From assembly GCA_014859685.1 (NCBI GenBank), contig JACUTU010000001.1:62001-126000 (forward strand): 64,000 nucleotides of DNA. Direction: 5' to 3'. The notes under the pieces were generated by a model. That model saw only the letters and a program-made list of their open reading frames with translations. It was not told where the DNA came from and made no database searches. The position numbers and the translations under genes are program-made. Within the stretch, counting starts at the first letter, position 1, and each line of letters opens with the position of its first letter. This DNA comes from Sulfurospirillum sp. (GTDB taxonomy: Bacteria; Campylobacterota; Campylobacteria; Campylobacterales; Sulfurospirillaceae). Shown here piece by piece: positions 9,181 to 53,541 of this stretch.

Positions 9181-9264
9181 CTGACCTTACGCACTTTTGT
9201 AAAAAAGTTCGTAAATACCTCTCATTTTCTCGAAAAGTACCCTTTTCGTAGCTTTAGTGCGTAA
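9181..9264 (+). repeat. Structured dispersed repeat, copy 1
   Basis: An outer pair TTACGCAC (9187-9194) and GTGCGTAA (9257-9264) encloses two hairpins: ACTTTT/AAAAGT (9193-9208) and CGAAAAG-TACC-CTTTTCG (9231-9248). About 75 nt match copy 3 (47741-47816, reversed), and the 3' half matches copy 2 (47543-47600). It lies between metE and glnS, downstream of metE on the minus strand. It could be a terminator-like RNA or a small mobile element. Confidence 0.72.
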
Positions 9265-9288
9265 CATCGGATGTAAGTAATGCTTTGT

Positions 9289-44681: not shown

Positions 44682-47501
44682 TTACGCTTTATAGAGCTTA
44701 ACAGCACATTTTTTATAGTCTGTTTGTTTTGACATTGGACAAGTTGCATCCAAACAAACTTTGTTGATAAATACTTTTTCATCAAACCAAGGCACGAAGA
44801 TAAGTCCTCTTGGCGTTCTATTTCTGCCTCTTGTCTCTACTCTGGCTTTGACTTTTCCACGACGAGATTCGATCCAAATAGTTTGACCTTGGATAAAACC
44901 TTTTGCACTCGCATCTTCTGGATGCATATAGCAAAGTGCTTCAGGAACAGCACGGTAAAGTTCAGGAACTCTCATAGTCATCGTGCCACTATGCCAATGT
45001 TCAAGCACACGGCCAGTACACATCCAAGTATCAAACTGTGCATCTGGCATCTCTGGCGGATCCATATAAGGTCTTGCAAAAATTTTGGCTTTGTTTTTCA
45101 AAGACTGTTTTGTTTTGTTGGTAATATTTTGCAAATCGCCTTGTGCCAACTCTTTTGCTATAGGTCCATAGAATGCAAACTCAGCACCATTGGCAGCTTT
45201 TGCGGCATATGGGTCATACTTTGCATTAAATCTCCATTGCGTTTCTTTGCCATCAACAACTGGCCATTTGAGTCCTCTTACTCTGTGGTAAGTGTCAAAA
45301 TCAGCCAAGTCGTGTGCGTGACCCCTTCCAAAGTTTGCATACTCTTCAAAAAGGTATTTGTGTAAGAAATAGCCATATCCTTCAAATACTTTGCCATCAC
45401 TTCCTACCACTTTTCTGCTATCGCCGATACATTCAGAATTATCAAAACCAGCTTGAATCGGATCATTTGCATCTATTTTGAAAGATTTTGCTTGCTCATT
45501 GCCAAAAAGAATTTCGTACATAGTTGTATCTTCACTGTATCCCATTTTTTTCGCATCTTCTATAACGCTTGGGAGTTTTTTAGGGCTTCCATCAGCATTT
45601 TTTCCACGAAGTGGTTGCTCACCCCATACATCTTTTACTGTAAATCTTTTTGAAAATTCAACCCACTGCCAAGTATCACTCATCGCATCGCCAACTGGAA
45701 GCACTTGTTGTTTCCAAAGTTGCGTTCTTCGCTCAGCGTTGCCATATCCGCCCCATTTTTCATAGATCATAGCACTTGGCAAGATGAGATCACTGACTTT
45801 TGCAGAAATTCCCGGGTAGCCATCAGAACAAACGATAAAATTATCCATTTGTCTTGCGGCTTTGATCCAATGGTTTGCATTGGCTGAATCTTGGTATGGA
45901 TTGCACACATTAACCCATGCAAATTTTACAACTCCATCTTCGATATCTCTGTGGATTTTCATGATGTGTTGGTTGCCTACGGGATTGAGTGTTTTTGCAG
46001 GTATTTTCCAGACTTTTTCGACTATTTCTCTGTGTTTTGGCACCGCCACCATCATATCAGCTGGAAGTCTATGACAAAATGTTCCAACTTCACGAGCCGT
46101 ACCGCAAGCACTTGGTTGTCCTGTGAGTGAAAACGCGCCTGAACCTGGTTTTGCTTGTTTGCCTAGTAAGAAGTGGACATTGTAGGAAAGTGTATTGACC
46201 CAAGTTCCTCTTGTGTGTTGGTTCATACCCATAGTCCAAAAACTTACTATTTTTCTGTTTTTTTCAACATAAAGGTTTGCAAGCATTTGAAGTTTTTTCT
46301 TAAACTCTTCGATATCTTCTAGTGGATCGCCTTTTGAAATAGTAGCAACATAATCAAGCGTATATGGTGCTAAAAATTTTTTATATTCTTCAAAACTTAT
46401 TTGCCAATGTTTTAAGCCTTGATCTTTGTTTTGCATCATATCACCCACTTTGTAACCAAATGGCTCAAGTGCAGGTGCTTCTTTTGCAGAAACTTCTTTT
46501 TGCATCTCTTTGTTTACGATCTCAAGTTCTTTGTCTGAATATTTGCCCTCTTTTATTGATTTTTCATCACTTCTTCGCATACCATAGCCTATATTTACAG
46601 GCTGAGAAGCAAATACGATGTGCTTATTTACAAAATCCCAATCAATGGCTTCTGGATGATTGTATACGATCTCTCTTGCTATGTAATTCCAAAGAGCTAA
46701 GTCGGTGTTTGGAGAAAATATGATCTCAATATCTGCAAGATCTGAACATCTGTGCGTGTAGGTAGAGATGTTGATAACTTTTACGCGATCTGGATCTGTG
46801 AGTTTACGATCACTTACGCGAGACCAAAGAATAGGGTGCATTTCGGCCATATTTGCGCCCCAAGTTACGATAGTGTCGGTAAGCTCGATATCATCATAAC
46901 ATCCACTAGGCTCATCGATACCAAATGTTTGGTAAAATCCCACAACCGCACTTGCCATACAATGTCTTGCGTTTGGATCTAATGCGTTTGATCGGAAACC
47001 ACCCTTCATCATCTTTTGCGCTGCATAACCTTCCATGATTGTGTATTGACCAGAAGCAAACACAGCAACGCCCTCAGGGCCACTTGCTTTGAGTGCTTTT
47101 TTGGCGTGAAATTCCATCTCATCAAAAGCTCGTTGCCAGCTTATCGGTTTGAACTTGCCATTTTTGTCAAACTCACCTTTGTCATTCATACGCAAAAGAG
47201 GTTGTTTGAGTCTATCGGCACCGTACATAATTTTTGCATTAAAATAGCCCTTGATACAGTTGAGCCCACGATTTACAGGAGCTGCTGGATCACCTTTAAC
47301 CGCAACGATTTTGCCCTCTTTTGTAGCAACCATGATACCACAACCAGTACCGCAGAAACGACAAACTGCTTTATCCCATCTCCAATCAGCTTGCGTTTGC
47401 GCTGCTGCTGCTTGAGCTGATTGTGGAATGCTAATCCCCACCGCTGCTGCTGCACTTGCTGCTGCTGTTGTCTTTAAAAAGTCTCTTCTTGAAAGCGACA
47501 T
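44682..47501 (-). CDS. napA: NapA, catalytic subunit of periplasmic nitrate reductase
   Basis: 939 residues. Tat signal [20 protein letters not shown], then the [4Fe-4S] site [20 protein letters not shown] near residue 47, and the molybdenum ligand Cys in [18 protein letters not shown] near 178 (Cys codon, not Sec). It has the large insertions usual in Campylobacterota NapA (E. coli NapA is about 828). It reduces nitrate to nitrite in the periplasm with bis-MGD. First gene of napAGHBFLD plus the PAS gene. A 380-nt spacer upstream holds a Crp/Fnr-like dyad and two structured repeats. No exact TTACATGTAA occurs in the gene. Confidence 0.97.
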
Positions 47502-47542
47502 AAACTCCTCCTATTTTGGATTCAAACTGATCTCGCGCAATG

Positions 47543-47600
47543 TACAAAAAAGTTCGTAAATACCTCTAATTTTCTCAAAAAGTATCTTTTTGTAGTTTTA
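47543..47600 (+). repeat. Structured dispersed repeat, copy 2
   Basis: Matches 9204-9256 of copy 1 in the same orientation. The second hairpin is kept as CAAAAAG-TAT-CTTTTTG (47576-47592), where copy 1 has CGAAAAG-TACC-CTTTTCG: the second base pair changes from G-C to A-T on both sides. The first hairpin is damaged. GCGTAACATC at 47640-47649 matches the end of copy 1 after an inserted stretch. Confidence 0.68.
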
Positions 47601-47692
47601 GAGGGGGCAGTAGAGACTTACGAACGCGTTTGTTTCAATGCGTAACATCAATCACAAACCAAATTGTACTCCTTAGCCAAAAGAGAAATCTA

Positions 47693-47704
47693 TGACTTAG
47701 GTCA
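47693..47704. promoter_or_regulatory. Crp/Fnr-like dyad upstream of napA
   Basis: TGACTTAGGTCA is a TGAC-N4-GTCA dyad (minus strand TTTGACCTAAGTCATAG), a close variant of TTGAT-N4-ATCAA. It lies about 190 nt before napA and between the inverted repeats at 47543 and 47741. It may bind one of the two Crp/Fnr regulators in the window. The rest of the 47502-47881 spacer shows no gene. Confidence 0.45.
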
Positions 47705-47740
47705 AATATTACAAAAAGAACAAATGTCCCTACGACCCCC

Positions 47741-47816
47741 TAAAGCTACAAAAAGGGTACTTTTTGAGAAAATGAAAGGTATTTGCGAACTTTTTTACAA
47801 AAGTGCGTAAGGTCAG
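47741..47816 (-). repeat. Structured dispersed repeat, copy 3 (inverted)
   Basis: The reverse complement matches copy 1 (9181-9256) almost base for base, including the end CTGACC. Hairpins: CAAAAAG-GGTA-CTTTTTG (47749-47766) and ACTTTT/AAAAGT (47789-47804). With copy 2 it forms an inverted pair bracketing the putative napA control region. Confidence 0.72.
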
Positions 47817-53445: not shown

Positions 53446-53508
53446 CTACTTCTCTACAAGAAATGAGAAGTATTGATGCACTTTTTTGCAAAAGAAAAAG
53501 TGCGTAAG
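53446..53508 (-). repeat. Structured dispersed repeat, copy 4 (diverged, both hairpins kept)
   Basis: Same architecture as copy 3 in this orientation: AAGCTAC start, hairpin TACTTCTC/GAGAAGTA (53447-53472), hairpin GCACTTTTT-TGCAAAAG-AAAAAGTGC (53478-53503), then GCGTAAGG. The stem bases differ strongly from the other copies but both stems stay perfect. It lies between the uvrB end and the SprA-like start. Confidence 0.6.
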
Positions 53509-53541
53509 GGCAATTATTTTAACATAATTTTGTTAAAAATT

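Follow-up and report, generated by a model that had tools for sequence, protein, structure and literature searches.

The short hairpin-bearing repeats found in the window (the whole stretch of DNA analysed, 64 kb in length) are copies of a non-autonomous DNA transposon, a MITE without genes, as concluded from their inverted ends, their 7-bp target duplications and the existence of an empty site in two genomes of the same genus. They define a new family of MITEs in Campylobacterota, related to a probable parent from the IS4 superfamily, and represent a known kind of element. The interpretation favoured here, with a probability of roughly 0.85, is that this MITE of 90-160 bp is moved by the transposase of an insertion sequence (IS) with the same ends, and that its interior is constrained in the master copies that transpose. 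The interior is more than random filler: two of its stems keep pairing while their sequence changes, and a linker hardly changes at all. The family is a large dispersed one in Campylobacterota, many of which are sulfur oxidisers, and it offers a natural data set on why a gene-less transposon should retain a folded interior: between species, the linker and the stems show opposite modes of evolution, and within a genome the copies decay freely.

An earlier note on this DNA had described four copies and their stems, all of which are present. When the window was searched by nhmmer with a profile built from 34 copies located elsewhere in the genome, the window copies being excluded, exactly these four were returned as significant matches, with E values from 3e-33 to 2.9e-8 (Table 1). 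The next match to the same profile (E 0.18) is the palindrome of copy 1 against itself, and the best match in the reversed window, used as a control, had an E value of 0.85. The locations given previously were right, the borders being corrected as in Table 1. The number four holds for the window; genome-wide, blastn with copy 1 as query finds the element in at least 41 places of the 2.1-Mb genome. Copies are also found in relatives, the family being scattered across this genome and related Campylobacterota, and nearly all of them are intergenic. Instead of the covariance model that had been suggested, the analysis relied on a profile search and on pairs counted directly.

Table 1. Copies of the element in the window and features of copy 1, with the corresponding profile matches
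Feature	Position	Strand	Basis	Profile match (nhmmer)
MITE copy 1, complete short form, 90 bp	9181-9270	+	sequence, blastn, flank alignment, profile search	9181-9266 (+), E 1e-30
Copy 1 hairpin H1: TTACG-C-ACTTTT / AAAAGT-T-CGTAA	9187-9214	+	sequence	
Copy 1 hairpin H2: CGAAAAG TACC CTTTTCG	9231-9248	+	sequence; helix covaries across genera	
Copy 1 right terminal inverted repeat, GTGCGTAACATCGG	9257-9270	+	sequence, copy alignment	
MITE copy 2, complete but decayed, 125 bp	47527-47651	+	sequence, empty-site comparison, profile search	47527-47650 (+), E 2.5e-21
MITE copy 3, cut off within hairpin H3, right end missing	47720-47816	-	sequence, profile search	47816-47711 (-), E 3e-33
MITE copy 4, highly diverged, lacking the right half	53446-53513	-	sequence, profile search	53512-53446 (-), E 2.9e-8

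A separate repeated feature of the window is the palindrome TTACATGTAA, which occurs 21 times (for example at positions 200, 530, 7813, 9151, 15866, 22825, 42125, 50529, 50747 and 57832), the next palindromic 10-mer occurring 4 times; 19 of the 21 lie inside large ORFs. Its density is about 2.7 per 10 kb here versus 0.07 in loci of other genera, and CTTACATGTAAG is found 193 times in the 2.1-Mb genome versus 0 for the reversed control. Its appearance suggests an iterated palindrome of the HIP1 type, an uptake signal or a methylation site.

Complete copies of the MITE measure 90-160 bp and, in this genome, carry the terminal inverted repeats CTGACCTTACGCAC / CTGATGTTACGCAC; in a sister genus CTGACCTTACGCAC stands at both ends of the element. 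Alignment of the copies with their flanks shows that the full element starts with CTGACCTTACGCACTTTT and ends with GTGCGTAACATCAG, the inverted repeat being imperfect. The outer TTACGCAC/GTGCGTAA pair previously noticed in copy 1 exists and corresponds to the terminal inverted repeats themselves; the GCGTAAGG end, thought to be shared by the copies, is absent from copy 2, where that end has decayed. Full-length forms of about 140-160 bp (L111, L170 and many copies of this genome, such as L012 and L015) have the order H1, spacer, H2, linker TAGCTTTAGGGGGTTGTAGGGAC, H3 and H4, leading to the right end. H1, in copy 1 as in the full-length forms, consists of the left end paired with an internal inverted copy of itself that is usually eroded, a perfect version being kept in L150 (TTACGCACTTTT CAT AAAAGTGCGTAA). 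H2 is CGAAAAG..CTTTTCG, H3 is GGGAC..GTCCC and H4 is CACTAAAACG..CGTTTTAGTG, the latter continuing into the right end. The plan of two hairpins that had been proposed is indeed seen, but it corresponds to a deletion form, full members having three or four: the short copy 1 is without H3 and H4, and a form of about 116 bp in the sister genus is without H1. In copy 4, the stem ACTTCTC/GAGAAGT takes the place of the usual H2. The element is too short for a transposase gene, and there is no sign of one.

The suggestion of a tiny non-autonomous mobile unit, also made in the earlier note, has been borne out, since the family has inverted ends and 7-bp duplications, one of its sites is empty in other genomes, and an autonomous relative has been found. 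Target-site duplications were searched for in 103 non-redundant elements from this genome and other Campylobacterota, including a few same-ended ones from other phyla. The 7 bp on either side are identical in 45 of them, against 1.4 expected and at most 5 when the right flanks were shuffled. Lengths 4-6 and 9-11 stay close to background, length 8 gives 6 exact cases, and the agreement between flanks, 73-87% per position at length 7, collapses at 6, 8 or 9. The consensus of the duplicated 7 bp is TTANTAA. Moreover, the site of copy 2, whose target duplication today reads ATTCAAA / TCACAAA (4/7 matching), is present but unoccupied in G001 and G002, the two genomes of the same genus, the coding flank being 84% identical and the far side carrying a conserved non-coding box. 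This copy (region 47501-47710) is located 26 bp upstream of where napA, the gene of the nitrate reductase NapA, starts, at a site that is empty in the sister species, and it separates napA from the conserved box CTATGACTTAGGTCAAAT, which has an FNR-like TTGACCTAAGTCATAG on the other strand and stands close to napA in G001 and G002. The element may reshape promoters and, in the case of copy 2, a rewiring of nitrate respiration is possible.

The end of the element leads to a candidate source of transposase. In a scan of 85,000 genomes, the 17-base end TGACCTTACGCACTTTT was found in Sulfurimonas, Sulfurovum, Sulfuricurvum and other Campylobacterota, together with chance matches and unrelated same-ended MITEs in Bacteroidia and Chloroflexi, and several of the matches lead directly into a transposase gene. 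One of them (L154) is an intact IS of 1,112 bp with the ends CTGACCTTACGCACTTTT and CTGACCTTACGCAACAAG, whose transposase of 353 aa has a complete YREK motif, Y-(2)-R-(3)-E-(6)-K (YEKRWKIEEFHKSIK). A second intact IS (L201), of 1,102 bp, is 64% identical to the first and shares the first 14 bases of the end. No intact copy was found in the genome under study, which holds only a remnant (64% identity over 33 residues, with one stop) beside the end CTGACCTTATGCAACAAG; because of this, the MITE copies of this genome are probably dead and decaying. Furthermore, neither of the two intact ISs has a clear 7-bp duplication. For both reasons it is their ends that tie the IS to the MITE, the missing duplication being the weakest link of the parent assignment, and the comparison of left ends is partly circular, many elements having been collected by that end. 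The linker is commoner in relatives with the transposase (6/15) than in those without it (44/384, p = 0.006), according to our own reading of the search results.

Two further observations concern elements with similar ends. Eight loci (L087, L118, L127, L132, L134, L138, L161 and L185) from Bacteroidia, Chloroflexi/Anaerolineae, Sulfurovum and Sulfuricurvum are same-ended MITEs with unrelated hairpin-rich interiors, these ends having spread with many different interiors. In addition, the genome contains a degraded IS4-type element (L071, G000:C23:6526-7224) with ends CTGAACTTTCGCACCTAA that fit the ISPepr1 end consensus, and 8 copies of its relatives, about 82% identical, exist in genome G010. 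This element (L071/L072) was rejected as the parent and is regarded as a relative, its ends agreeing in only 12/14 positions and its transposase being unlike that of L154.

As regards classification, the ISPepr1 subgroup of IS4 has CT ends, an AT-rich target, a duplication of 7-8 bp and a size of 1.5-1.6 kb (PMC2266710). Following that scheme, the 7-bp duplication of the MITE, the 5'-CT ends, the AT-rich target and the YREK motif of L154 point to this subgroup for the parent, although it differs from the subgroup in size (about 1.1 kb) and fits its end consensus only partly. A likeness to the IS701 family is also seen, the L154 transposase scoring 333 bits against the NCBIfam model transpos_IS701_2 (NF049921, cut-off 250), but IS701 elements make 4-bp duplications and are mostly without the tyrosine of YREK (PMC2266710), in contrast to the 7 bp of the MITE and the full motif present here. 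Length 4 being at background in the MITE flanks, an IS701-type duplication is not seen in them, and a size of 1.1 kb fits neither group. The mobilisation of the MITE by this IS can be pictured as follows: a DDE transposase of the IS4 superfamily (IS701_2, with ISPepr1-like motif, ends and duplication) would have recognised the MITE ends in trans, excised or copied the element and inserted it at TTANTAA-like sites with duplication of 7 bp, the source of the enzyme probably being the same-ended IS of about 1.1 kb that is intact in other Campylobacterota.

The behaviour of the stems differs within the genome and between genera. The change from G-C to A-T that distinguishes H2 of copies 2 and 3 from that of copy 1 is real in those copies, but it does not stand as the compensatory change it had been taken for: over 42 copies of the genome the pair is G-C in 24, G-T in 6, A-C in 9 and A-T in 3 (Fisher p = 0.70), and the stem positions vary independently. 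Since the two positions mutate independently, the copies of this genome decay regardless of pairing. Between genera, on the other hand, structure is conserved over sequence, as had been proposed for the copies in general. When arms defined from sequence anchors only were exchanged between elements (44 distinct arm pairs for H2 and 44 for H4), own arms beat swapped arms, and for both hairpins 0 of 20,000 permutations reached the observed sum. The pair counts agree in showing strong covariation between genera. For H2, 91.7% of the cells are paired versus 61.9% after shuffling, with a covariation score of 0.72 versus 0.18 and all 7 pairs changed on both sides; for H4, the values are 93.2% versus 72.5% and 0.56 versus 0.19, with 9/10 pairs changed on both sides. 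Slid controls collapse, and the covariation score was reached by 0 of 500 shuffles for either hairpin, in counts that somewhat favour structure through the removal by hand of six H2 and three H4 seemingly misregistered rows (all retained in the arm-swap test) and with shuffle controls that are inflated by the relatedness of the copies. Stems may be wholly replaced and still be perfect, as CCCATATC/GATATGGG in L088, CCTGCATC/GATGCAGG in L240, TTTTCATC/GATGAAAA in L247 and CATAAAA/TTTTATG.

Whereas the stems are rewritten between genera, the 23-base linker TAGCTTTAGGGGGTTGTAGGGAC hardly varies among 15 of them. With up to 3 mismatches allowed it is found in 50/399 Campylobacterales genomes and 15/87 genera, with up to 64 copies per genome, the reversed control giving 0 matches. 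Mean pairwise identity is 88% in the linker, 62% in H2, 59% in H4 and 26% in the spacer, in an alignment of 35 non-redundant elements that were selected for the most part by their ends; the linker's first few bases had in addition served to orient them. Since conservation extends to the linker sequence and to stem pairing alike, recognition of the ends by a transposase is insufficient as an explanation, although the conservation of the linker could also reflect recent spread between genera instead of constraint.

Several explanations have to be weighed for this conserved interior. It might act as RNA, the TAGCTTTAGGGGG strand being transcribed from neighbouring genes and the hairpins serving as 3'-end stabilisers, terminators or processing sites to the benefit of the host or of the element, and the true covariation of H2 and H4 agrees with such a role. 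So does the fold, full elements folding far better than shuffled ones, with z -6.9 as RNA (the value of L111) and z -4.4 as DNA. G.T mismatches also exceed A.C in H2 and H4 (32 vs 17, p = 0.04), and in H3 outside this genome (30 vs 7), the latter count being biased by a 5' arm that lies within the conserved linker. Within the genome, however, mismatches are symmetric (17 G.T vs 12 A.C) and stems decay freely, and the elements show no preferred orientation relative to the genes beside them (26 in the same sense, 17 antisense, 22 convergent and 19 divergent). No Rfam family is matched either, the window giving nothing at the gathering score of Rfam 15 and 8 loci nothing relevant at E up to 1, and no terminator signature in the form of a T-run was seen by eye. 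An RNA role for the interior is consequently considered rather unlikely, and of the alternative formulated earlier, an RNA or a cruciform DNA element, the RNA part has the weak G.T excess in its favour. Alternatively, the covariation could be purely mutational, template switching in quasi-palindromes copying one arm from the other with no selection involved. The exchange of entire stems for unrelated perfect ones (L088, L240 and L247) is what such a process would produce, H2 of copy 4 has seemingly been rebuilt from the preceding TTCTC, and about 90% of the stem cells are Watson-Crick, with few G.U. As a complete account it is nevertheless rather unlikely, since it leaves unexplained both the conservation of the unpaired linker and the fact that stems within one genome decay independently instead of being rewritten.

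Another possibility considered is that the interior hairpins, nested in the MITE, serve a RAYT transposase (HUH tyrosine type) as substrates of the REP kind. RAYT-like Y1_Tnp genes are present in 15/18 carrier genomes, this one included, and the linker has a GTAG adjoining H3, GTAG repeats having been reported from Sulfurovum NBC37-1 (PMC3733652). Nevertheless, the linker is found at 0/20 RAYT loci (about 1 kb per side, 6 mismatches allowed), the GTAG lies here inside the H3 stem while REP tags are unpaired (PMC3733652), and the unit flanked by target duplications is the whole element from end to end, not a hairpin; nesting of this kind is therefore very improbable, and an IS200/IS605 or REP/RAYT origin of the element, hinted at by hairpins, GTAG and TTAC, is rejected on account of the target duplications and the RAYT flanks. 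The genome has a RAYT-like HUH transposase gene of its own (L296, G000:C9:32501-32830, 219 aa), with no recognised repeat partner. In the favoured reading, the constraint would fall on those master copies that transpose and would act on their DNA in folded form while it is transposed or replicated, with template switching that rewrites palindromes as a possible contributor, and it would not reflect a job done by each inserted copy; the mismatch bias, slightly toward RNA, speaks against a purely DNA version of it. More tentatively, and with somewhat less than even odds, H2, TAGCTTTAGGGGGTTGTAGGGAC, H3 and H4 may together form a conserved structured module, a hitherto undescribed RNA or single-stranded DNA fold, that gives the MITE a selective advantage in transposing or in persisting in the host and has been maintained in at least 15 genera of Campylobacterales, its stems being rewritten.

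In the literature collection searched, no paper on this family or on MITEs of Campylobacterota was found. The element can be compared with known repeats. GTAG-tagged REPs and their RAYTs (PMC3733652) likewise consist of short palindromes, the stems of which differ from family to family by complementary changes; they differ in that the element described here has neither an unpaired GTAG tag nor a repeat-flanked RAYT gene, and in that its mobile unit has inverted ends and target duplications. A likeness is also seen to bacterial MITEs such as NEMIS/Correia, ERIC, RUP and Nezha (listed in PMC3733652). It extends to size, terminal inverted repeats and the lack of coding capacity, as well as to an intergenic location, strong secondary structure and many copies per genome. 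The ends and target duplications of those MITEs are other than those of the present element, which differs from them, moreover, in its four-hairpin interior, with a linker that is almost invariant across 15 genera and stems that are rewritten.
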